IMG/VR virus record: IMGVR_UViG_3300042295_000291
Span: 1 to 44,363 of that record
Length of the DNA: 44,363 nucleotides
Direction: 5' to 3' (one strand)
From: a virus
The notes beneath the pieces were generated by a model. The model searched no databases. It was not told the origin of the DNA and saw nothing but the letters and a program-made list of their open reading frames with translations. Position numbers and translations under genes: made by a program. Below are positions 9,838-41,809 of the stretch, in pieces; positions within the stretch are counted from its first letter, which is position 1, and each line of letters begins with the position of its first letter.

Positions 9838-10664
9838 TGAACACCAATGTGAGCCCAACCGGCACCGTTGCCCCCGGCTTTGAGGGCTACCTCACGGACA
9901 TGCTCAATCGTTCGTGGGGGTTGGCGCAGCAAGAGTACACGCCCTACACCGGGCGGCGGTTTGCCTACGAGACGCCTGAAGGTGCACCGGGCTACTCCCC
10001 GCTGGAGGAGGAGGCATTTACCAGCCTGGGCGGTATCGGCTCGTATCAGCCGGGGCAGTTCAACACGGGCCTTGGTCCGGTCGGGTCCGTTCAGGACTAC
10101 ATGAACCCGTACCTGCAGAATGTCGTTGACATCCAGGCCCGGGAAGCCCGTAGGACCGCTGACATCAGCCGCAACACCGAGCAGGCTCGCCTTGCCCAGG
10201 CCGGTGCCTACGGCGGCAGCAGGCAGGCCATCATGGAAGCCGAGCGCCAGCGCAACCTGGGAACCCAGATCGGGGACATTCAGGCCAAGGGGCTCATGGC
10301 TGCGTATGAGCAGGCTCAGAAGCAGCGCCTCGGAGAGGCGACCCTCGGGCTTGAAGGTCAACGTCTGGGCGAAGCCTCGCGGCAGTTCGGTGCTGGCCAG
10401 GACCTGAAGACCATCGCGGATCAGATGAAGGCTGGTACGCTTCAGCGTGGCATCGCGCAAGAACCTCTGGACTTTGGCTACAAGGAGTGGTCCGAGTCCA
10501 TGAACTACCCGTACAAGCAGCTTGGCTTCATGCGCGACATCGTCAGCGGCATGCCTATCAATTCGCAGCCCTATCAGCCAGGGACGTCGTCATTTGGCTC
10601 TGCTATCCAAGGCGGGCTGTTTGCGAATAGCATCTACGACATGATGTTTGGGAAGAAGTCATGA
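9834..10664 (+). CDS. Helical virion protein of the ejection module
   Basis: 276 residues starting MMNTN; the first ATG overlaps the previous stop and AAGGAG lies just upstream. It has an N-terminal 'FEGYLTDMLNRSWGLAQQEYTPYTGRRFA' segment, then a long Gln/Ala/Arg-rich helical part with regular seven-residue hydrophobic spacing (about 90-190, 'ARRTADISRNTEQARLAQAG'), ending 'YPYKQLGFMRDIVSGMPINS'. This is a recurring protein type in environmental phages, located next to ejection or internal virion genes. A rod-like internal protein is plausible; no enzymatic motif is seen. Its stop overlaps the next start (ATGA). Confidence 0.55.
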   Translation: MMNTNVSPTGTVAPGFEGYLTDMLNRSWGLAQQEYTPYTGRRFAYETPEGAPGYSPLEEEAFTSLGGIGSYQPGQFNTGLGPVGSVQDYMNPYLQNVVDIQAREARRTADISRNTEQARLAQAGAYGGSRQAIMEAERQRNLGTQIGDIQAKGLMAAYEQAQKQRLGEATLGLEGQRLGEASRQFGAGQDLKTIADQMKAGTLQRGIAQEPLDFGYKEWSESMNYPYKQLGFMRDIVSGMPINSQPYQPGTSSFGSAIQGGLFANSIYDMMFGKKS

Positions 10665-12265
10665 TGTTCAATCCTGGGCAGTCTCAGTCTGGTGGGCTTG
10701 GCAGTGCGCTGGCCCAGGGGTCCGGCGTGCCGGATGATCAGTTTGCGCGTTTGGCTACGCAGTCCATGCAGCAGACCGGCGTGACGCCGATTGCCATGCT
10801 TGCGGATCTGGCTCGGAGGATCACGGCCAAGAAGAACGCAATGATGAACCAAGGGCTCCAGGCAGGTGCCCAGATGGCCCGCAAGCCTGCGACTCTCAAG
10901 GACGAGATCGACCAAGAAGCTCTGGCTCTAGGGATCGGGTCTCAGCCGTATGGCTACGCCGGGGGCGGACTTGTCGCGTTCCAAGATGGTGGTGAGCCAA
11001 AGGAAGAGCCTCTGACCATAGAGGACCTTCTTGCTGCGAATCTGGAGGATATCCAAGCAGATGAGTTCGCTGGGTTTACCCCGGACTCAATCGTATCGGT
11101 GACGGATCAACTTAGAGTAGAAGACGTACCTAGGCTCAATAGAATTAGAGAACTGGAAAGGCAGATTACAGAGCTTCAACAACGAAGCCCAAGCAACGCT
11201 CGACTGCCAGGGCTGATCACAGAGTTGAATGCACTAAAGGCAAGCGCTGCGCCCGCTGCCGCTGCTCCTGCCGCCGCTCGTCCCTCCGCTGCTCCTGCCG
11301 CTGCTCCTGCCGCTGCTCCTGCCGCTGCTCCTGCCGCTGCTCCTGCCGCTGCTCCTGCCGCTGCTCCTGCCGCTGCTCCTGCCGCTGCCGTTGCTCGTCC
11401 TCCCGCTGCTCGTCCTCCCGCTGCTACTCCCCCTGCCGGTGCACCTACCGTCCCGGCTGGTATCCCGGCTGACATCGCGGAGTACACGAAAGTCGCTAAT
11501 GCGGGGATCACTGGCATGGAAGGTAGGGGCGGAGTGACCCCTGGGGAACTGCAGCTTCGTGAAGCGCTGATTGCTGCGCAGCAAGCGGAGCGTCAGCAGC
11601 CTGTGGAGTACAAGGAGCCTGAAGGGCTGACCACTCGGGAGATGCTCCAGCTTGCGTCCTTCGACCCCACAAAGGGCCGGTGGATGGGTAGCCTTGCAGA
11701 AAAGGCCGCTGGTGTCATGAGTGCTCGGGAAGCCAAAGCGGAAGAAGCCAAGAAACTCAACCGTGAGATCGACGCTGCAAACCGCAAGCTCAACACGGCC
11801 TTGGCGCAACAGCGTCTGGCGTACTCTGTCGGGGATAGACAAACTCGGGAAGCTGCAGATCAGGCGGTCCTCAACGCCAGGATCGCACTGCGGGAGAAGG
11901 TCGTGCAGTTTGGCATCCAGGCAAGCGACGCCGAATCGAGGCGAATTTCGGCGGAGGCGGCTAGAGCCGCTGCAAACCGAGCGACGAGTAATGACGGAAC
12001 TAATCAGCAGCGCTTGGCAATCCAAAGAATGAAGGCGGATCCTGGCTACAAGGGGGTACAGGAGGCTTTGCTTAACGCGCAAAAAGCCGCCGCTGCAGCC
12101 CCAACCAACACTGCCCTACAAGAAAAACTTCGGAAAGCTCAGGCGGACGCAATTACTTTGATGCGCAGGTATGGAGTAGATCGCGGGGAGGATCCTGATC
12201 TTTCTACTGGCACTGAAACGGCACCTATTGATCGTTCAGGCTGGAAAGTCCAAGAAGTCAAGTAG
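10661..12265 (+). CDS. Internal virion protein with Ala-Pro hinge
   Basis: 534 residues; ATG at 10661 overlaps the previous stop, with GGGAAG upstream (a second ATG follows at once). Residues 1-110 include 'YGYAGGGLVAFQDGGEP', a Gly-rich motif common in proteins of this module. Residues about 190-265 form a low-complexity hinge of AAPA units. Residues 330-500 are strongly helical and Ala/Arg/Glu-rich with coiled-coil character ('KLNREIDAANRKLNTALAQQ'). It probably forms an extended internal or ejected protein; the molecular activity is unknown. It precedes the giant polyvalent gene by 5 bases. Confidence 0.55.
   Translation: MMFNPGQSQSGGLGSALAQGSGVPDDQFARLATQSMQQTGVTPIAMLADLARRITAKKNAMMNQGLQAGAQMARKPATLKDEIDQEALALGIGSQPYGYAGGGLVAFQDGGEPKEEPLTIEDLLAANLEDIQADEFAGFTPDSIVSVTDQLRVEDVPRLNRIRELERQITELQQRSPSNARLPGLITELNALKASAAPAAAAPAAARPSAAPAAAPAAAPAAAPAAAPAAAPAAAPAAAPAAAVARPPAARPPAATPPAGAPTVPAGIPADIAEYTKVANAGITGMEGRGGVTPGELQLREALIAAQQAERQQPVEYKEPEGLTTREMLQLASFDPTKGRWMGSLAEKAAGVMSAREAKAEEAKKLNREIDAANRKLNTALAQQRLAYSVGDRQTREAADQAVLNARIALREKVVQFGIQASDAESRRISAEAARAAANRATSNDGTNQQRLAIQRMKADPGYKGVQEALLNAQKAAAAAPTNTALQEKLRKAQADAITLMRRYGVDRGEDPDLSTGTETAPIDRSGWKVQEVK
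11288..11383 (+). repeat. Eight perfect 12-bp repeats encoding AAPA
   Basis: The unit gctgctcctgcc is repeated eight times without a single change and is flanked by imperfect copies on both sides. It encodes an (Ala-Ala-Pro-Ala)n hinge. Absence of synonymous changes implies recent slippage or expansion. Confidence 0.95.
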
Positions 12266-24303: not shown

Positions 24304-25860
24304 TTAGGTGGTTAGTACCTCCTGGCGGTAGAGGTCGAGCAGGGTGCTCATGTCCTCGGTCTTCAAGTCCAGCGCGTCATAGAGCTTGCGTTCCACCTGG
24401 GTGCTGCACAGCCGCACAACGAGGCAGGGGTTCTTCTGCCCCGAGCGGTGCACCCGGGCATTGGCCTGATGGTAGGTCTCGTTCGACGTCACAGGCCCCC
24501 ACCAGACCACGGTGTTGGCTGCGTGCAGGGTGACCCCGTGCGAAGCTGCCGCAGGCTGGATGAGGAGCACTCGCGGCTCGGGCTGGGTCTGGAAGTCAGC
24601 GAAGATCTTGTTGCGCTGCCCCACGGGCACGCTGCCATCGATCACTTCAACGGTGTACTCATCCTTCTTGAGCTTCTCGTGCAGTACCTTGATGGTGTGC
24701 CGGAAGGGGACAAAGACCAGCACCTTGTGAGTGCTCTCTTCGATGGCTTCCAGCAACACGTTGTACCGGGTAGTGATGTCGAACTCAACCGCGTTACCGT
24801 CGTCCGAGTAGACCGCACCGCAAGAGACTTGCAGTAGCTTGTTGAGATTGGTAGCAGCGTTGACTGAGGTCACGGTCTCGCCCCCTGCCGCCATGATGAA
24901 CTGCTCCTTTAGCAGCTTGTAGTACTTGGACTGCTGCGGGGTCAGAGGCACGTCCCGTGTGGTGTACAGAAGCTCGGGTAGATCCAGGCAATCGTCCTTG
25001 GTGAACCGGATCGCTGGCTGCAGAACTTGGTTGACGATCTCTTGTGCGTTCGATTTCGCTTTCCATTTGAACTGCGTGACCTTGTGCATCACCCGGTCCC
25101 GGAATGCGTAGAAGTAGTTCGGCACAGACGTGTCATCCATCATCTTCGCCAACCCATAGGCATCGGTCGGCGCCTGCGAGGCAGGGGTACCGGTCGCCAT
25201 CCACAGCCACGTATTGGGGGTGATGAGTTGGTTGATGGCCTTCCAGCGCTTGGTCGTCGCTGTCTTCACCGCGTTCGCTTCATCGATGATGATGAGGTCA
25301 AACCCCCCGGCTTTGAGTTCGTTGAGGACCGTCTCCACACCGTCGAAGTTAATCACCACAAACTCAGCGTCTGAAGCGATGATCTTGGCCCGCTTCTTGC
25401 GGTCACCGTAGGCCACGTCCACCCTGCGGTGCATCAGCGTCTTGAACAAGTCCGCCTGCCATGCCGGGGCCATGATGGACAGCGGGCAGATGACCAGTAC
25501 CCTTCGTACAAACTTGCGTCCAAGAAGGTAGTCCGCAGCCCAGGCGAACGAAGCGGTCTTGCCCGTGCCCGGGTCATTGAAGCAATACGCCCGCTTGTGC
25601 AGTGTCATGAACGCTGCGGTCGTCTTCTGGTGCTGGAACGGCTTGAACACCCCAGGCCACTTGTAGCGGCCCAGGATGGGTGAGGGCACGTTCTTCACAC
25701 CCAGATTGCGCAGGACCCGCGCTTCGTCCAACCCCCACCACACCAAGACGTCAGAAGTCCCAGAGCTTTGGGCGACAACTTTCGCCTTCGGTATGGTGGC
25801 TAGAACCCGCTCGGGGTTGCGCAGCCGAAGCAGAAGCGCTTTGTTTTCAATGATCTGCAT
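24304..25860 (-). CDS. SNF2-type superfamily 2 DNA helicase/translocase
   Basis: 518 residues. Helicase motifs in order: 'PFQHQK' Q-like motif (74-79), motif I 'NDPGTGKT' (95-102), motif II 'IIIDEANA' (190-197), motif III 'MATGTPAS' (221-228), then in the second RecA domain 'VFVPF', 'VIDGSVP' and motif VI 'QANARVHRSGQ' (465-475). The RVHRSGQ signature is typical of SNF2-family enzymes. Phage members are thought to act in fork restart, recombination or displacement of bound proteins. It is flanked by a DEDDh exonuclease, with the polymerase further upstream in the same operon. Confidence 0.9.
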   Translation of the reverse strand: MQIIENKALLLRLRNPERVLATIPKAKVVAQSSGTSDVLVWWGLDEARVLRNLGVKNVPSPILGRYKWPGVFKPFQHQKTTAAFMTLHKRAYCFNDPGTGKTASFAWAADYLLGRKFVRRVLVICPLSIMAPAWQADLFKTLMHRRVDVAYGDRKKRAKIIASDAEFVVINFDGVETVLNELKAGGFDLIIIDEANAVKTATTKRWKAINQLITPNTWLWMATGTPASQAPTDAYGLAKMMDDTSVPNYFYAFRDRVMHKVTQFKWKAKSNAQEIVNQVLQPAIRFTKDDCLDLPELLYTTRDVPLTPQQSKYYKLLKEQFIMAAGGETVTSVNAATNLNKLLQVSCGAVYSDDGNAVEFDITTRYNVLLEAIEESTHKVLVFVPFRHTIKVLHEKLKKDEYTVEVIDGSVPVGQRNKIFADFQTQPEPRVLLIQPAAASHGVTLHAANTVVWWGPVTSNETYHQANARVHRSGQKNPCLVVRLCSTQVERKLYDALDLKTEDMSTLLDLYRQEVLTT

Positions 25861-26742: not shown

Positions 26743-27426
26743 TCAACCTCCGTTGGCCCCGTTGTGGGGGCAGGTCGTTACGATGCAGTGCCGCTTACAC
26801 AGCCCTGACGGGCTAGGGTTCCACACCCCCAGGTTGTGCGCAACCTCCAGGCGGCGCACGTCCTCCATCCACTGTCTCCAGTAGAGCTTCTCTTGCGCGG
26901 CTTCGTAGTCCGCTGGCTTGAAGTTGTTGGCAACGACAAATAGCAGCCCAGCCCGCACCTTACGGACGAACGGGAAGTGCTTGAAGATCATCAGTGCCAT
27001 TAACTCAAGCTGCGCTGTGTCAGCGTACTTCGTGGACTTGCTGGTCTTGTAGTCCACCACCCGGGCGATGCCCTTCTCTTCGTTGATGATGAGCAGGTCC
27101 GCGATACCCCGGCACCACACCGTGCTGTCTCTGAATCCGCAGGGGTTGAGTTCCTTGGTCAACCCCATCTCGTACTCGCAGTACTTCGTCCCAGGCAGCG
27201 AACGAAGAGCGCTTAGGTGTGGCTTCGTGAAGCTGAACTCTGGTGGAAGCTCGACACCATCCCGCATGAAGTTCTCTGCCGCTGTGTGGAAGTTCTTTCC
27301 GTACAACGTAGCCTCAGTGTGTTCGGGCTCCTTGAAGTTCTTCGCTACCTTGATCTCGTAGAACTTTTTTGGACAAGTCTTGAAGGACTTGAGGGACGAG
27401 TAGGACCAGGGTCCGGGCAATGTCAT
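26743..27426 (-). CDS. Cas4/RecB-like PD-(D/E)XK nuclease with Fe-S cysteines
   Basis: 227 residues. 'WSYSSLKSFKTCPKKFY' is the Cas4/AddB-type N-terminal motif with C18. Nuclease residues: H47, D110 in 'GIADLLI', D125 and K127 in 'VVDYKTSKS', Q139 of the 'QLELMALM' helix. Three more cysteines close the protein (C210, C214, C219 in 'LCKRHCIVTTCPHNG'), so together with C18 a 4Fe-4S cluster is expected. Related enzymes are exonucleases that make 3' single-stranded ends. The ATG overlaps the previous stop (ATGA). No cas1 or cas2 or CRISPR is nearby, so this is a recombination nuclease rather than a CRISPR part. Confidence 0.88.
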   Translation of the reverse strand: MTLPGPWSYSSLKSFKTCPKKFYEIKVAKNFKEPEHTEATLYGKNFHTAAENFMRDGVELPPEFSFTKPHLSALRSLPGTKYCEYEMGLTKELNPCGFRDSTVWCRGIADLLIINEEKGIARVVDYKTSKSTKYADTAQLELMALMIFKHFPFVRKVRAGLLFVVANNFKPADYEAAQEKLYWRQWMEDVRRLEVAHNLGVWNPSPSGLCKRHCIVTTCPHNGANGG

Positions 27427-27623
27427 GACGAGCGCGGACGGGCCGAAGGCCCGTTCTCCATGATGGCAAGTACGCCCTGAAGGATACGCACTTCCACGCC
27501 AAGATGCAAGGCCGCTTCGCTCGCTTCAGCGTACCGGTGCTCAAGGCACAGGTCATGGATCTGTTTGATGAGCCGCTCGATGGTGATGAGCGGCATAGCG
27601 TAGTCGTTGAGGTTCTCGTTCAT
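27423..27623 (-). CDS. Small helical protein between polymerase and nuclease
   Basis: 66 residues, overlapping both neighbours by 4 bases (ATGA at each junction). Predominantly helical: 'ITIERLIKQIHDLCLEHRY' and 'AEASEAALHLGVEVRILQGVLAIM'. No family recognised. Such tight coupling between a polymerase and a recombination nuclease suggests a small accessory factor, but nothing in the sequence shows its role. Confidence 0.6.
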   Translation of the reverse strand: MNENLNDYAMPLITIERLIKQIHDLCLEHRYAEASEAALHLGVEVRILQGVLAIMENGPSARPRSS

Positions 27624-29476
27624 GCTTCCCCGTAGTTCCGGCCTATGCCGGATTCGCAGTTGATCGGACAGCCTTTGGCCCAGTCAGGCACCCACCGCAT
27701 GCACTCCTCGACGTAACCCCGAGCGGCCTCGACTTCTTCTTCCCGGGCCAGGGCAACGACGCTGTCGTGAACGGTGAGCTTGGTCGGTAGTTTACGTGCA
27801 ATCCGTAACATCTGATACATCACGATGATCCGGGCAAGTGCTTGGCATACGTTTTCCACCAGCTTGCCGCCGTAGATATCCACTATACCGGTGTCGTCTT
27901 TGTAGGACCAACGACTGCGCCCAGAGTCGAAGACACGGTGAAGTTGCGGATAGCTGATGTACAGCCCGCTGGGTAGGCGTACACCGTACTTACCTTCTAT
28001 CCTGACTACGCCTTCACGTCCAAACCACATACTGTTGTTGTCGTACATAGCTTGGATGGAACGTTCTCCTTGGTTCCAAAGGCCCACGATCTTTGGCACG
28101 CTGTCACGGTAGGTCTTGATGATCCGCTCGCACTCGTCCGCAGGCATGTCCACTGAGGGCTTCGCTGCCTTGAGCGTTACCTGCAGCTTCCCTGCCCCGG
28201 TCTGGTAACCGCAGCCGAGGACTACAGTCTTGCCTACAAAACGTTCTTGCTGATCCGCCTTGGTAATCTGCCTGCCGAAGATCGTCGTCGCCAGCTTGCA
28301 GTACACGTCCACACCGTTGGCGAAGTCTTGCACCAGATCGTCTTGCCCAGCCCACCACGCCAGCATGCGGGCCTCGATGTTGGACGAGTCGCAGTTGATG
28401 ATGACCCACCCGGGCGGTGCCTCGATGCACTCCTTGAGCCCCACGTTGCCCCGGGACGGCAGGTTCTGCAGGTTGATCCCGTCACCACCCGACGAGCGCT
28501 TGGTCCGAGCATAGGCGTACTTCAGCGGCACGGGGAACCGTGGGTCGCGCTTGGCGATGTCGATGAACCGCTGCGTGCGGGTCTCTTCCAGGGTGCTCTT
28601 CACCCCCAGGCGGGCAGCGGCCAGGGCCTGCACGGTGGGGCTCTCGTGTTCCAGCAGGGCCTTCATGCCCACGTCGGTCTTGGCAAACGCAAACGTACTC
28701 TTGCCCGTGGTCGGGCTGATCTTCATAGGCACATCGACGCCCAGGGTCTCCAGCAAAACCGCGAAGCGTTGGTTGGACATGAGTTCGGACTTGTCCACCG
28801 TGACCCGCTCCATGAGCGCAGCCTTCTGTGCCACAACTTCTTCGAGATGACCTTCGAGCTTGTTCAGGTTCAGCCGTAGCATGGGCTCTGTGAACATGCG
28901 GATGTGCAGGTCGATGAGCTTGAGTTCCTGCATTGGGAACACGCCACGGTTGTCCCCGTCGCTCGGGTCGTACCACCCGTTGGACATGAGACGCCACAGG
29001 TCATAGCACAACTCCACATCTTTGAGGCAGTAGGCAACGTACTGCTGGAACTCTGAAGGGCTGAAGTCTTTCCTCCTCATCCCCATGGCGTTCTGCACGA
29101 ACGTGCCCTTGTCATCCAACCCGTAGCGTTTCGCCAGGGAAGCGAGGGAGTTGTTCCTCGATCCGAACATGGCACGGCCCATGGACAGGGTGTCCAGCCA
29201 CGCAGCCGGGTTCACCCCAAAACGCCAAGCCAGGATCGCACCGTCGAACAGGGTGTTGTGGCACAGGACCGCGTAGCGTCCCCACTCGATCTCGTCGAAC
29301 TGGTGTTTGATCTCAAGGTGCGTGCCCTCGATGAAGTCGAGCCTGCCATCCGGCCAGCGTATGCCAACCATGATGACCTCGAATCGTGGATCACGCACAT
29401 ATTCTTCAGTTGTCAGCTTGCTTAGACTGTACTCCTTGTCGTAATACGTTTCAAAGTCAATCGTGAGGATCTCCAT
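27620..29476 (-). CDS. polA: Family A DNA polymerase with 3'-5' exonuclease domain
   Basis: 618 residues from the ATG at 29476 (GGAGCGGAAG upstream; overlaps the VRR-NUC stop by one base). Exonuclease: D7 and E9 in 'ILTIDFETYY', D78 in 'CHNTLFDGAIL', Y149 and D153 in 'YCLKDVEL' (DEDDy). Polymerase: motif A 'INCDSSNIEARML' (D363), motif B 'RFVGKTVVLGCGYQTG' (R412, K416, Y424), motif C 'LTVHDSVV' (H570, D571). Two features differ from E. coli Pol I: the residue matching Klenow F762 is Leu420, and motif C is HDS, not HDE. No 5'-3' exonuclease domain is present, as usual in phages. This is the replicative polymerase. Confidence 0.95.
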   Translation of the reverse strand: MEILTIDFETYYDKEYSLSKLTTEEYVRDPRFEVIMVGIRWPDGRLDFIEGTHLEIKHQFDEIEWGRYAVLCHNTLFDGAILAWRFGVNPAAWLDTLSMGRAMFGSRNNSLASLAKRYGLDDKGTFVQNAMGMRRKDFSPSEFQQYVAYCLKDVELCYDLWRLMSNGWYDPSDGDNRGVFPMQELKLIDLHIRMFTEPMLRLNLNKLEGHLEEVVAQKAALMERVTVDKSELMSNQRFAVLLETLGVDVPMKISPTTGKSTFAFAKTDVGMKALLEHESPTVQALAAARLGVKSTLEETRTQRFIDIAKRDPRFPVPLKYAYARTKRSSGGDGINLQNLPSRGNVGLKECIEAPPGWVIINCDSSNIEARMLAWWAGQDDLVQDFANGVDVYCKLATTIFGRQITKADQQERFVGKTVVLGCGYQTGAGKLQVTLKAAKPSVDMPADECERIIKTYRDSVPKIVGLWNQGERSIQAMYDNNSMWFGREGVVRIEGKYGVRLPSGLYISYPQLHRVFDSGRSRWSYKDDTGIVDIYGGKLVENVCQALARIIVMYQMLRIARKLPTKLTVHDSVVALAREEEVEAARGYVEECMRWVPDWAKGCPINCESGIGRNYGEA

Positions 29477-29766
29477 TACTTCCGCTCCAAGAACCACTGT
29501 TCCAGAAGTTCGATTGTATCCTCCCTGACCACCATTGCGCTACCCCCGGCCTTCTGGATTTCAGCCATCTCACGCTCTTGTAACGCAGTTGGTTTGTTGA
29601 ACCCTGCCTTGCACTCGACGCCAAGGAACATGCCCCTGAAGCACACGATGATGTCGGGCACGCCCGCACGTCCGTAGCCGTTCTGCGCTGGGAAGAAGTA
29701 GTACGCCTTGTACTTCTTGATGATGTCAACGCATCGGGCCTTGACCTTGGATTCCGGAGTGCTCAC
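29476..29766 (-). CDS. VRR-NUC domain nuclease
   Basis: 96 residues from the GTG at 29766, which overlaps the previous stop as GTGA; an ATG nine codons further upstream (29793) is possible. VRR-NUC residues are clear: 'GRAGVPDIIVCFRG' (D38), 'LGVECKAG' (E51, K53), 'TALQEREMAEIQKAGG' (Q63), then 'AMVVRE'. These small PD-(D/E)XK enzymes cut branched or Holliday-type DNA in related phages. It directly precedes the polymerase, with a one-base stop/start overlap, so co-production is likely. Confidence 0.9.
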   Translation of the reverse strand: MSTPESKVKARCVDIIKKYKAYYFFPAQNGYGRAGVPDIIVCFRGMFLGVECKAGFNKPTALQEREMAEIQKAGGSAMVVREDTIELLEQWFLERK

Positions 29767-35318: not shown

Positions 35319-35582
35319 TTACTTCCTTGCGTCATACAGTGCCTCCGCTAGTACGAAGGGCGGTTCCTCGGATTCGATAGCCATCCGCCACCCTTCAGCA
35401 AAGATAACCCAGGTTTTAGTTACACCGTAGTACTTGAGATGCATCAGGCCCTTGTACGTCACGTACCCTTCCGGCATGGTGTGCCTTTGATAGAGCCCGA
35501 ATCGCTGTATGGCCGCAAGTTCATCGACCAACTTCCACTCACGCTCGGGGCCTAGGGGCTTGGGTAGTTCATGTTGGGACAT
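35319..35582 (-). CDS. Unknown protein downstream of the VWA gene, 87 aa
   Basis: ATG at 35582 lies inside the end of the VWA gene (14-base overlap). 'EREWKLVDELAAIQRFGLYQ' helix, then 'YVTYKGLMHLKYYGVTKTWV' and 'EGWRMAIESEEPPFVLAEAL'. Its coupling to the VWA/AAA+ genes suggests that it may serve the same system. No family recognised. Confidence 0.6.
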   Translation of the reverse strand: MSQHELPKPLGPEREWKLVDELAAIQRFGLYQRHTMPEGYVTYKGLMHLKYYGVTKTWVIFAEGWRMAIESEEPPFVLAEALYDARK

Positions 35583-36777
35583 ACAGCGTCTCCCCCACCG
35601 GGGCACGCAGACCCTTGGTGCTGATGCACCACAGCACAGGGCAGGGCAGCGTCGCAGGCCAGGGCGTGTACCCATCCGTGAACATGATCACAGCATCCGC
35701 GTTGATGCCGCGCTTCTCCATGTAGCGGAACATCGACCGCACGTCGGTACCGCCGCCACCCTTGGGCTTGGTCACGTTGGCGATGTCGCGCACGCGCTCA
35801 CCCTCGTACACCTCGTGCGCTGCCACCTCGGCGTCCCAGTAGATGACGTCCACCGTCTGGGGGCTGACCGACTCACACGCACCAGCCACCTCAGTCAGTG
35901 CCCGTCGCAGTTGCGCTTCACCGATGGACCCGCTGGTGTCGATGCCGATGACGATGCGGTCCACGCTCTCGGTGTATTTGCTTGGCATGTACATGTCCTG
36001 CCCAAGCCAGCGCCGTGCTGGCCTGCGCCATGTGCTCATGTCCTCACCCTTGGCGGTCGTCTTCAGCCAATCACGCAGCACGTCCTGCCAGGGCACCACA
36101 GGCTCCAGCAGTGCCTCGACGTCCCGCGCCATGCCATGGCCCAGCTTGCCAGCGATGAGTGCGCCTTGACGCAGGGCCGTGTCCACGGCCTTGGAGACCT
36201 CCTCGGCTTCGGCTTCGGTCAGGGGCTTCATACGCCCGTCAGCAGGGTCGTCACCCTCACCACCCCCGGGCTGCGCGGGCTGATGCTCGTCGAACTGCTG
36301 GCCCTTGGGGCTATTGCCCCCGCCCCCGCCGCCTTGCGGCTTGGATTGGGCTTGTTGTTTGAGCCTGCGGTACACCTCACCGGTATCCATACCCTTGAAC
36401 TGCTGGTCGCAGTAGGCATGCTTCCAGATCGTCAGGAATTGTTCGCCCGGATCTGCTTCCTTCAGCATGAGGTTGATCACCATGTCCTTGGCGATGTTGC
36501 TCAGCTTAGCGTCTTCCTGATCGAGCTTGGCCCAGGTCGTCATGTGCATCAACAGCACATGGTAGTACTCGTGCAGCACCACGAAGCGCAGCAGCTTGTC
36601 GTCGCACTCGTCAATGAACTTGCGGCCATACAGCACGTCCCTGCCGTTGGTCGCCGCAGTGGGGATGTCGTCCACCACAGACCACGTACCGATCATCAGG
36701 ATCGGGCTGATCGCAGTGAAACGCTCGTCACGCATGATGGCGCTACGCGCCTTGGTGATACGTTGTTCTGGGGTCAT
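35569..36777 (-). CDS. CobT-like protein: DUF2201 metallopeptidase-like domain plus VWA domain
   Basis: 402 residues. The N-terminal domain has 'VVLHEYYHVLLMH', an HExxH motif (H69, E70, H73), followed by 'IAKDMVINLML', as in the DUF2201 N-terminal metallopeptidase domain. A Gly/Pro/Gln-rich linker (145-180) leads to a C-terminal VWA-like domain with MIDAS motif 'IGIDTSGSIG' (D280, S282, S284), a Thr in 'GGGGTDVRSMF' and an Asp in 'VIMFTDGYTPW'. VWA proteins of this kind work with MoxR-type AAA+ ATPases, one of which is encoded just upstream. Its RBS (AAGGAG) is part of a GCTCC/GGAGC hairpin. Named cobalamin gene cobT in some annotations, but no cobalamin pathway is present here. Confidence 0.87.
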   Translation of the reverse strand: MTPEQRITKARSAIMRDERFTAISPILMIGTWSVVDDIPTAATNGRDVLYGRKFIDECDDKLLRFVVLHEYYHVLLMHMTTWAKLDQEDAKLSNIAKDMVINLMLKEADPGEQFLTIWKHAYCDQQFKGMDTGEVYRRLKQQAQSKPQGGGGGGNSPKGQQFDEHQPAQPGGGEGDDPADGRMKPLTEAEAEEVSKAVDTALRQGALIAGKLGHGMARDVEALLEPVVPWQDVLRDWLKTTAKGEDMSTWRRPARRWLGQDMYMPSKYTESVDRIVIGIDTSGSIGEAQLRRALTEVAGACESVSPQTVDVIYWDAEVAAHEVYEGERVRDIANVTKPKGGGGTDVRSMFRYMEKRGINADAVIMFTDGYTPWPATLPCPVLWCISTKGLRAPVGETLYVPT

Positions 36778-36781
36778 GATA

Positions 36782-36812
36782 GCTCCTTCGGAGCCCCGGG
36801 CGATGCCGGGGC
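36782..36812 (-). promoter_or_regulatory. Hairpins covering the RBS of the VWA gene
   Basis: The Shine-Dalgarno sequence AAGGAGC forms the 3' arm of a GCTCC-GAA-GGAGC hairpin (36794-36782), five bases before the ATG at 36777. A second 7-bp stem GCCCCGG/CCGGGGC (36812-36793) abuts and shares its outer bases. The start of the VWA gene may therefore be restrained relative to the ATPase. Confidence 0.55.
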
Positions 36813-36822
36813 GGTTGGTTTG

Positions 36823-37875
36823 TCAGCGCATCATCCAGTTGTTGGCGGTGCACCAGTTGGTGAAGTTGATGTTCCTAGCTGCGAACACAGACTTGCCCCT
36901 GATACGGAGCAACTGATTCACGAACACGCCTTGCAGTTCCAGAGGCAAGCGCTTCATGTAGGTCATGACAGGGTTGAGGGTATCCTCCATGGTGCGGTTG
37001 ATCGCCCGGTGAACCACCATCATAAGCGCTGCGGGGTTGTCAGGCAATGCTGCCATATCCGGGTTGTTGATGATGGACTGCCACGCCGGGAGCTTCCTAC
37101 CCAACTGCACATACACCTGCAGATCAGCCGCCGAGCGGTAGCCAATCAAGCCAGACAGTGCAGCTCGTTCAGCGTCGTCGTCCTCGATCTCCGCATCCAG
37201 CACACGGCCAGCAGCGGCGAGGGAGCGCGGCGTGCAGAACGCCTTGCGACCGGGGTCCTTGCGGTGCCAGATGTACGGGTTCTGGTCAGGGTTGTTCACC
37301 GTGTCGTCGTCCGCCAGCACGTCAGGCGTCTCCGTGACCCAGGCCAGGACAGCATGGTGCACACCGTTCTCGACACCCCACTGCACCCACTCCTCGGCGG
37401 TGGGCTTGCGCATGGTCACCACTGACATGCGATTGCGGACGTGCATCTGCAGGCTGTCACCCACACCCTCGGCGCTGAGGTTGGTCGTGCCGAAGACGAT
37501 GCTGCCAGCAGGCAGCGGGCGGTTGCCCACACGCCGGTCCAAGATGACCGGCAACAGCGCGTTCTGTACCGAGCGCGGGGCCTTGCCGAACTCGTCCAGG
37601 CAGATAGCCACAGGCTGCTGACCATGCACGCCGAAGATGGCGTTGGGGTAGAACGTGCTGGTGCCCGTGGCGTGGTCCACGGCGGGGAGTTGGATGTCAC
37701 CCACGTCGATCTGGGTGCAGTCGATGTAGACCGCACGGTGCCCGGGGAACCGCGCTGCCAGCATGTACAGCATGCTGGACTTGCCCGAACCCGAGGGACC
37801 CTCCACCAGCACGCTGGTGTGGGAACCGACCGCGCCGATGACGTTGGCGCACTGATTGATGCTGAGCTTGATCAT
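36823..37875 (-). CDS. MoxR/CobS-like AAA+ ATPase
   Basis: 350 residues. Walker A 'VEGPSGSGKSS' (24-34), Walker B 'ICLDEFGKAP' (91-100), sensor 1 in 'IVFGTTNLS' (127-134), arginines in 'MHVRNRM' (144-150). The 'ADIQLP'-like segment 'VGDIQLPAVDHATG' after strand 2 is typical of the MoxR/CobS branch. Such ATPases remodel a substrate together with a VWA partner, here the neighbouring gene. Phage copies are often annotated as cobaltochelatase subunit CobS, although a cobalamin role is unlikely. A long gap with three hairpins separates it from the gene upstream. Confidence 0.9.
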   Translation of the reverse strand: MIKLSINQCANVIGAVGSHTSVLVEGPSGSGKSSMLYMLAARFPGHRAVYIDCTQIDVGDIQLPAVDHATGTSTFYPNAIFGVHGQQPVAICLDEFGKAPRSVQNALLPVILDRRVGNRPLPAGSIVFGTTNLSAEGVGDSLQMHVRNRMSVVTMRKPTAEEWVQWGVENGVHHAVLAWVTETPDVLADDDTVNNPDQNPYIWHRKDPGRKAFCTPRSLAAAGRVLDAEIEDDDAERAALSGLIGYRSAADLQVYVQLGRKLPAWQSIINNPDMAALPDNPAALMMVVHRAINRTMEDTLNPVMTYMKRLPLELQGVFVNQLLRIRGKSVFAARNINFTNWCTANNWMMR

Positions 37876-37892
37876 GGTTTCTCTCTCCTAGA

Positions 37893-37904
37893 TTTACTGG
37901 TAAA
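37893..37904. promoter_or_regulatory. Operator-like motif copy 1 (TTTACTGGTAAA)
   Basis: Inverted repeat TTTAC-TG-GTAAA in the leader of the MoxR gene, just upstream of its RBS. With two flanking bases it matches a site at 41085-41098 over 14 bases in the opposite orientation; a near copy is at 39802-39813. Confidence 0.4.
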
Positions 37905-37970
37905 GGGGCCGAAGCCCCGGGGGATCACTCTTGCCCCGCCTTGCGGCGGTGCGCTGTGGATCACAGCGCA
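37905..37970 (-). other. Three hairpins between the DUF3150-like and MoxR genes
   Basis: In the transcribed strand: TGCGCTGTG/CACAGCGCA with a 3-base loop over the upstream stop (37970-37950), CCGCC-GCAA-GGCGG (37949-37936, GNRA tetraloop) and GGGGC-TTCG-GCCCC (37918-37905, UUCG tetraloop with C-G closing pair). None has a T-run. Likely mRNA stabilising or processing elements that set the ratio of the two proteins. Confidence 0.65.
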
Positions 37971-38977
37971 AACTTATCCAGAATGTCCTGCATCGCGGAC
38001 TTGGTAGCCCGCTGCAGTTCGGTGGACTCCTTGAGCGAGTCGATGTCCACCCGTGTGAGGGCAGTCTCAAGGTCCTGCCGTGCCGCTTCGAGCCGGGGGT
38101 CGTTGGTGACGTTGAGGTCACGCAACATGGCGCACAACTCCAACCCCTGCTCCAGCATGGAGTCGTACAGCTTGGGGCGGCGCTTCTTCTTGATGTCCAT
38201 GCGGACAACGCCCTCCTCAAACACATCCTTGATCTCAGACCCTACGACATTCCCATAATCATCGTACACAGGCACCTCCTCGGTGCCTACCTTGACGGCG
38301 CCCATGATGGGCTGTTCTTCCACTGCGTCGGGGTCATGCTCCAGCACGGCGGTCATGCGCTCGTGCACCCACTCGACCTGGGCCTTCACACGTTGCCATG
38401 TGTCAGCCACGGCGCCTGAGACCCGTTCCGCGAGGGCACGCTCATACTGCGCCTTCAGTTGGGCAGCGGCTTCGTTGCCGATGTCCACACGAAAATCCCC
38501 GGCCAAAGGCACCGGGCTGACGGACAGCACGAAGCGGAACTTGCCACGCACTTCGGACACAGGCGGGTACTCGCTGCGGTCGAACAGCGCACCCATCTCG
38601 AAGGCTTGCTTGGAGATCTCGGTGCCGTACACATTCACGAAGACGTTCAACAGATCGTTGAACCGCTGCTCGTACTTCGCAGCCTGCTCCATGACCCGCA
38701 GGTACTGGGCAGTGGTGATGAGCCTGCCACCGTTGTCGTCCCAGGGCAGGGTGGCGTTGTTGAACCACACGCGGGCTTCACCGCGCAGGGTCTTGATGGC
38801 TTCGAGGGACGGGCACTCGGAGAACAAGTGCTTGGATACCGTCGCCGCACGGCGGGACTTGGCGCCCTTGTTCGCCAGGACTTCCGCCTGGGTGTTCTTG
38901 TCCAACTTCCGTGCTTCCCACACAGATATGTTGAGACTTCCGATCATGGCGGAAGATGCGATGCTGATGGTGTTCAT
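37961..38977 (-). CDS. DUF3150-like partner of the MoxR-VWA pair
   Basis: 338 residues, mostly helical with several coiled-coil-prone stretches ('LRVMEQAAKYEQRFNDLLNVFVNVYG', 'AAAQLKAQYERALAERVSG'). The opening 'GSLNISVWEARKLDKNTQAEVL' and the position beside CobS- and CobT-like genes match the DUF3150-type protein that accompanies this pair in other proteobacterial phages; the family name is given from memory of that arrangement and is tentative. It may be the adaptor or substrate loader of the ATPase complex. It starts four bases after the previous stop. Confidence 0.6.
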   Translation of the reverse strand: MNTISIASSAMIGSLNISVWEARKLDKNTQAEVLANKGAKSRRAATVSKHLFSECPSLEAIKTLRGEARVWFNNATLPWDDNGGRLITTAQYLRVMEQAAKYEQRFNDLLNVFVNVYGTEISKQAFEMGALFDRSEYPPVSEVRGKFRFVLSVSPVPLAGDFRVDIGNEAAAQLKAQYERALAERVSGAVADTWQRVKAQVEWVHERMTAVLEHDPDAVEEQPIMGAVKVGTEEVPVYDDYGNVVGSEIKDVFEEGVVRMDIKKKRRPKLYDSMLEQGLELCAMLRDLNVTNDPRLEAARQDLETALTRVDIDSLKESTELQRATKSAMQDILDKFAL

Positions 38978-39791: not shown

Positions 39792-39813
39792 GTTAAACGC
39801 GTTTAACAGTAAA
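39792..39813. promoter_or_regulatory. 16-bp palindrome overlapping motif copy 2
   Basis: GTTAAACGCGTTTAAC (39792-39807) is a perfect palindrome. It overlaps TTTAACAGTAAA (39802-39813), which differs from the TTTACCAGTAAA sites at 37.9 and 41.1 kb by one base. It lies 17 bases before the start of the 109-aa gene. Confidence 0.5.
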
Positions 39814-39827
39814 CCCCCTTGCGGGGG
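39814..39827 (-). other. Hairpin with GCAA tetraloop
   Basis: CCCCC-GCAA-GGGGG on the transcribed strand, a few bases after the stop at 39834. GNRA loop, no T-run. Confidence 0.65.
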
Positions 39828-39833
39828 TGTCGG

Positions 39834-41780: not shown

Positions 41781-41809
41781 ATTATAGCATAGACTGACCC
41801 TTATGTCAA
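41781..41809 (-). promoter_or_regulatory. Consensus sigma70 promoter of the main early operon
   Basis: Minus strand: TTGACA (41809-41804), 17 bases, TATAAT (41786-41781), preceded by TGC (extended -10). All 12 core bases match the consensus. It overlaps the last codons and the stop of the 315-aa gene. Transcription should start near 41774 and run leftward through the leader into the whole early operon. Confidence 0.9.

Follow-up and report, generated by a model that had tools for sequence, protein, structure and literature searches.

A three-gene AAA+, zincin-VWA and DUF3150-like block of phages and plasmids: a probable protein-remodelling machine with a possible role in DNA replication and recombination

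The virus record IMGVR_UViG_3300042295_000291 (44,363 nucleotides, analysed at full length and here called the window) carries three complete minus-strand open reading frames at 35569-38977, transcribed in the order C, AAA+, zincin-VWA. Their products very probably work jointly as a machine that remodels proteins at the expense of ATP and includes a metal-dependent, protease-like part. The AAA+/zincin-VWA pair is already known from N4 and jumbo phages, and protein C is added here as its third partner. From the genomic context we infer the complex, its client, a link to DNA and proteolysis; that one such machine of three genes serves phage DNA replication and recombination seems to us possible, with a probability of roughly 45%.

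N4-like phages have the pair among their core genes, hundreds of phage records contain it, and resistance plasmids commonly carry a diverged triad. A single three-part architecture, in which the zincin and MIDAS sites are invariant, unites these scattered genes in one testable question. New in this analysis is that plasmid RecT/Bet-exonuclease modules and phage polymerase/exonuclease neighbourhoods contain the same triad architecture, an indication of a role in DNA recombination or replication.

The gene block and its surroundings

A preliminary description of this DNA had proposed a block of a MoxR-like ATPase, a VWA-zincin protein and a helical third protein, lying in an early operon and lacking any cobalamin gene. 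The layout is confirmed (Table 1), and the residue numbers given for K32, H69 and E70 are correct. Tail, lysis and head genes lie on the left plus strand of the window, and its right part is a long minus-strand gene series including the triad and DNA-metabolism genes, among them DNA polymerase, a PD-(D/E)XK exonuclease, an SNF2-type helicase and a DUF927 primase/helicase-like protein. The gap between triad and polymerase amounts to about 6 kb. All three triad genes are under purifying selection (dN/dS = 0.10-0.31) and are therefore not chance open reading frames. BLASTn of the triad block against phage records returned zero matches.

Table 1. Features of the triad and its neighbourhood in the window, from right to left.
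Feature	Position	Strand	Evidence or remark
Exact sigma-70 promoter TTGACA-N17-TATAAT, upstream of triad	41781..41809	-	sole exact match in window, same direction as triad
Protein C, 338 aa, DUF3150-like	37961..38977	-	profile homology; conserved residues in 77 homologues
Two short hairpins, C/AAA+ gap	37905..37949	-	no more stable than shuffles
MoxR/midasin-like AAA+ ATPase, 350 aa, phrog_1297, N4 gp24-like	36823..37875	-	Pfam, PHROGs, tblastn
Walker A GPSGSGKS, residues 26-33	37777..37800	-	G29, K32 invariant in 70 homologues
Walker B LDE, residues 93-95	37591..37599	-	D94, E95 invariant in 70 homologues
Hairpin, AAA+/zincin-VWA gap	36793..36812	-	z -1.3
DUF2201 zincin + VWA/MIDAS protein, 402 aa, phrog_1314, N4 gp25-like	35569..36777	-	Pfam, PHROGs, tblastn, model
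HExxH (H69-E70-Y-Y-H73), putative zinc site	36559..36573	-	invariant 72/72
H78	36544-36546	-	invariant in 72 zincin-VWA proteins
DxxxN (D98-N102), candidate third metal ligand region (role inferred)	36472..36486	-	invariant in 72
DxH (D163-x-H165), linker between zincin and VWA	36283..36291	-	invariant in 36-row phage alignment; at least 95% of 72
MIDAS motif 1 DTSGS (D280-S284)	35926..35940	-	D280, S282, S284 invariant in 72
T344, completes MIDAS	35746-35748	-	97% of 72
D368, completes MIDAS	35674-35676	-	invariant in 72
DNA polymerase (neighbourhood)	27620..29497	-	homologue on same strand after triad in relatives
PD-(D/E)XK exonuclease (neighbourhood)	26743..27426	-	
SNF2-type helicase (neighbourhood)	24304..25860	-	

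The proposed early placement is supported by the promoter read from 41809 to 41781. Of 22 close viral loci, several of them near-duplicates, 11 have the same exact pattern upstream of their triad, with a different spacer sequence. Expression timing alone may be the cause of this early, replication-associated placement.

Hairpins between the genes had been taken to set the stoichiometry of the three products. Such hairpins are indeed present, and relatives have comparable short ones in the corresponding gaps; this interpretation is nonetheless not supported, since their stability does not exceed that of shuffled sequence (z -1.3 and -0.45). In this phage group, intergenic gaps repeatedly contain short hairpins that are rich in GC, often have UUCG loops and are in some cases followed by a TTTA-type tail (window gaps 36778-36822, 37876-37960 and 39813-39828; relatives L046, L048, L053, L057 and L073).

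The scanned genes of the window include no cobalamin gene, as had been stated earlier, and a CobN-like gene was likewise not found in the window. Insertion of a metal in the manner of the cobaltochelatase components CobS and CobT, for cobalamin or another metallocofactor, would suit the AAA/VWA architecture, and a bacterial pair linked to DUF3150 has weak CobS/CobT scores. These lie far under the equivalog cut-offs (CobS 91 versus 559 bits, CobT 23 versus 759 bits), on which cobaltochelatase CobNST was rejected; the window proteins themselves match neither family. Metal insertion is thus extremely improbable, and the evidence speaks against reading the cobS and cobT labels of phage and plasmid genes as cobalamin metabolism.

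The AAA+ ATPase and the zincin-VWA protein

The ATPase scores 31.6 bits against Pfam AAA_5 (cut-off 22) and matches phrog_1297 (ATPase) with an E-value of 1.4e-47. This score, together with intact Walker A and Walker B motifs, places it in the MoxR/midasin group. Besides the Walker residues, N132 and R217 are invariant across the 70 AAA+ proteins aligned, and the nearest solved AAA modules are those of midasin (E 8e-20).

The zincin part of the third gene product scores 106.5 bits against Pfam DUF2201_N (PF13203; cut-off 23.2) and its VWA part 62.7 bits against the DUF2201 VWA family (PF09967; cut-off 26.4); the whole protein matches phrog_1314 with an E-value of 6.3e-87. With PF13203 above its cut-off and an HExxH motif, it belongs to the DUF2201 putative metallopeptidases, and its MIDAS residues, encoded next to the ATPase, agree with a MoxR-VWA pair. 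The claim of a complete HExxH and a MIDAS VWA domain is borne out by alignment of 72 proteins, whose median column identity is 33% (33-39% over the alignments in which zincin, MIDAS and Walker residues are invariant); two alignment rows that were wrong proteins, L028 (A2) and L029 (A3), were left out of the statistics. Free variation of these sites among homologues had been named as evidence that would count against the idea, and it clearly does not occur: HExxH and the MIDAS residues D/S/S/D never vary. The conserved DxH in the linker could act as a switch that binds metal, or could mark a site of cleavage; of four plasmid DUF2201-type partners, three gave no match to it in a simple pattern search.

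The structure model of this protein (pLDDT 82, pTM 0.60, a single chain without metals or partners) matches in its VWA part, among other VWA domains, the MIDAS domain of MDN1 and NorD of NorQD. The zincin would be the protease-like part of the set, with a putative metal-dependent activity. The PHROGs label of phrog_1314, HNH endonuclease, is unsupported, as Pfam gives a DUF2201 zincin and VWA. This label is widespread on phage records of zincin-VWA proteins and is apparently a propagated misannotation.

Protein C

The window protein matches no Pfam family above cut-off, PF11348 (DUF3150) included. Among 18 aligned homologues of C, 8 match PF11348 (best 4.9e-6), and the phage C profile aligns over residues 2-165 with plasmid and bacterial DUF3150 proteins (HH probability 96.4%, E 1.4e-9). 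The suggested label of DUF3150-like therefore holds only by profile, and C is no formal member of PF11348. Five residues are invariant in 77 homologues (D26, R69, P78, G129 and F132). The description of C as helical is largely, though not wholly, reflected in the predicted model, which is mostly helical and contains some strands as well (pLDDT 84, pTM 0.48, a single chain without metals or partners). A fold search with this model gave no PDB match at E <= 0.001, and comparison of the C sequence with solved structures yielded nothing convincing. DUF3150 is not mentioned in the open-access literature searched.

Distant C-like genes were noticed in planctomycete genomes (L037, L038, L040, L043; G003-G006) with E-values of about 1e-20 to 1e-27, and a DUF2201_N match was found nowhere in these genomes. 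They may be read as C-type proteins with another partner or role.

Linkage of the three genes in viruses

A search of viral contigs with the alignment of C alone found relatives of C on at least 547, of which 80 were kept for locus analysis. The full triad lies on one strand in 68 of the 80, and a polymerase follows it downstream on the same strand, at 0.8-5.3 kb, in all 34 phage loci where a polymerase was seen (34/34), both being non-independent counts, as metagenome loci share descent. An exonuclease often accompanies this polymerase. In the other 12 contigs, the contig or fetched stretch stops within about 3.4 kb on the side where the missing gene can lie; since these ends can explain the missing genes, the 12 loci are no clear counter-examples. 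Four gene orders occur, namely AAA-MP-C (36), C-AAA-MP (26), MP-AAA-C (5) and AAA-C-MP (1), where MP denotes the zincin-VWA gene. Cohesion through four orders is stronger evidence of linkage than simple operon inheritance would be, and C is a real partner of the AAA+/zincin-VWA pair. Pairwise distances of the three proteins also correlate (r 0.90-0.92 in 60 genomes, beyond all 999 permutations), values which shared genome history alone can yield. These data support the earlier proposal of a chaperone-like MoxR-VWA set in which the zincin motif is intact and a DUF3150-like protein is the third member, and show the block to be inherited together. In the close relatives L007, L009 and L010, about 0.9 kb of extra sequence lies between the AAA+ and zincin-VWA genes.

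Two separate functions might be supposed instead, the pair being a machine and C a DNA-metabolism protein that merely shares its operon. Schitoviridae, which have the pair without a detectable C, and planctomycetes, in which C-like genes occur without the pair nearby, would suit such a division. It appears very doubtful, as C remains no more than a few kb from the pair whichever of the four gene orders applies, and the diverged triads of plasmids retain DUF3150 with ATPase and VWA genes.

Phage, plasmid and bacterial relatives

By tblastn, the zincin-VWA protein was detected in 715 phage records and the AAA+ protein in 385. Linked matches to phrog_1297 and phrog_1314 identify the window pair as of the N4 gp24/gp25 kind. 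These two are core genes of N4-like phages (PMC4193335, PMC7650795) and are transcribed in the middle class, not late (PMC4193335); a phage functional-genomics paper gave nothing relevant on them. A search for C in Schitoviridae gave no convincing match, even with filters off, which suggests that C is not always needed and counts against a machine that is three-part throughout. The record of cyanophage MinM2 carries the annotations MoxR, DUF3150 and VWA.

All three phage profiles match directly on plasmids of Burkholderiales and Rhodovastum, which hold a DUF2201-type triad in the order AAA-C-VWA. Upstream of the triad, a PRTRC cassette is present on a Cupriavidus plasmid, and a comparable series of genes on one from Burkholderia. 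These PRTRC-linked triads lie near no recombination genes, which counts against a role in recombination.

A diverged triad of MoxR, DUF3150 and a CobT-like VWA protein with intact HExxH is found on conjugative plasmids (IncC, IncT). A DUF3150 homologue is present in each of 1147 plasmid records, of which 971 are typed as conjugative. In IncC pMG252, IncT Rts1, an E. coli MOBH plasmid and an Enterobacter plasmid, triad genes stand with RecT/Bet and a lambda-type exonuclease, and in three of these four also beside ssb; the annotated AAA ATPase of IncC is parted from DUF3150 by ssb-bet-exo. Rts1 (L141) bears an IS2-type element at 10153-11381 inside the VWA region of its triad. The genes ORF100-103 of pCAR1, conserved in R478, Rts1, SXT and R391, were noted in 2009 without function (PMC2642839).

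Of 274 genomes from a single bacterial class, five have the diverged branch of DUF3150 with a CobT-like VWA protein, judged by cut-off. All five loci have the CobT-like/VWA partner, four have a Walker-motif ATPase within the fetched stretch, a YqaJ or PDDEXK nuclease adjoins the triad in three, and SSB in one. Among the aligned CobT-like partners from plasmids and bacteria, HExxH and a MIDAS-type DxSxS are present in 8 of 8. The AAA+ profiles of the phage and plasmid/bacterial branches match with an HH probability of 95.2%. The zincin regions of phages and the plasmid branch align weakly (24.8%, E 8e-4), and shared function of this domain across the two branches is therefore uncertain.

Proposed function

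In studied MoxR-VWA pairs, a client is caught via the VWA/MIDAS site and ATP use in the AAA+ ring alters or frees it (PMC7159879). By analogy, we hypothesize that the AAA+ subunits would assemble as a ring, that the zincin-VWA protein would grip the client through its own MIDAS VWA domain, and that C could be an adaptor giving specificity for a client or DNA complex. ATP hydrolysis would then pull or reshape the client at intermediates of replication or recombination, in the way that midasin or NorQ-NorD handle their own clients, and the zincin, once activated, may clip the client or a subunit. This site of action is proposed from the neighbouring genes, namely polymerase and exonuclease in phages, and RecT/Bet, nuclease and SSB genes in plasmids and bacteria.

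Whether the same holds beyond phages is a more tentative matter. A mobile-element-wide machine of a midasin-like AAA+ ring, a MIDAS-zincin and a DUF3150 adaptor, common to lytic phages and conjugative plasmids, might conceivably strip or cleave proteins from such intermediates, which we regard as a somewhat doubtful proposition. If true, this machine would have been overlooked because its genes carry the labels cobS, cobT, HNH endonuclease or hypothetical.

The occurrence of triads in both phages and conjugative plasmids, the early placement and the zincin would also fit counter-defence or host takeover, in which the machine would recognise a host protein of defence or regulation and unfold or cleave it soon after infection begins or while a plasmid establishes itself. 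We consider this unlikely, as the sequences are conserved with low dN/dS rather than changing rapidly, and core status in Schitoviridae suggests a basic function; PADLOC gave no meaningful match, though it lists defence and not counter-defence proteins. For the same lack of a PADLOC match, and because C resembles DUF3150 by profile rather than the third parts described for MoxR-vWA ternary systems (VMAP, iSTAND), the suggested relation to conflict systems is not supported; a defence system was rejected on the PADLOC result.

Finally, the pair may fold or assemble virion proteins, with the zincin trimming them during maturation. Such a role in virion assembly was explicitly proposed for jumbo phages (Iyer et al., 2021; PMC7824862) and is suggested by analogy with the Acidianus two-tailed virus; a viral MoxR-VWA precedent exists. 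As a general role it is quite unlikely, because the conjugative plasmids on which diverged triads are common make no virions; moreover, phage triads lie near polymerase and exonuclease genes downstream of a host-type promoter, and N4 gp24/gp25 are middle genes.

Comparison with known systems

Several known systems each resemble the window triad in part. N4 gp24/gp25 of Schitoviridae are an AAA+ and zincin-VWA pair homologous by profile and tblastn, at about 22-29% identity and with no detectable gene for C. Group 2.2 jumbo phages have a MoxR and metallopeptidase-vWA pair of the same two-protein architecture, with no third protein described in the part of that paper considered (PMC7824862). Midasin (Rea1/MDN1) and NorQD share the AAA+ ring and MIDAS/VWA arm, with the best sequence match for the AAA+ and fold matches for the VWA part, but are devoid of zincin and DUF3150 and act on other clients. 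The triads of Burkholderiales plasmids are like that of the window in matching all three profiles directly, and differ in their PRTRC cassette neighbourhood. The MoxR-DUF3150-VWA genes of the IncC/IncT type have the three-part layout, an intact HExxH and a MIDAS-type motif in the VWA partner; in contrast to the window, this partner is of CobT type with a long linker rather than of DUF2201 type, and RecT/Bet and exonuclease genes adjoin.
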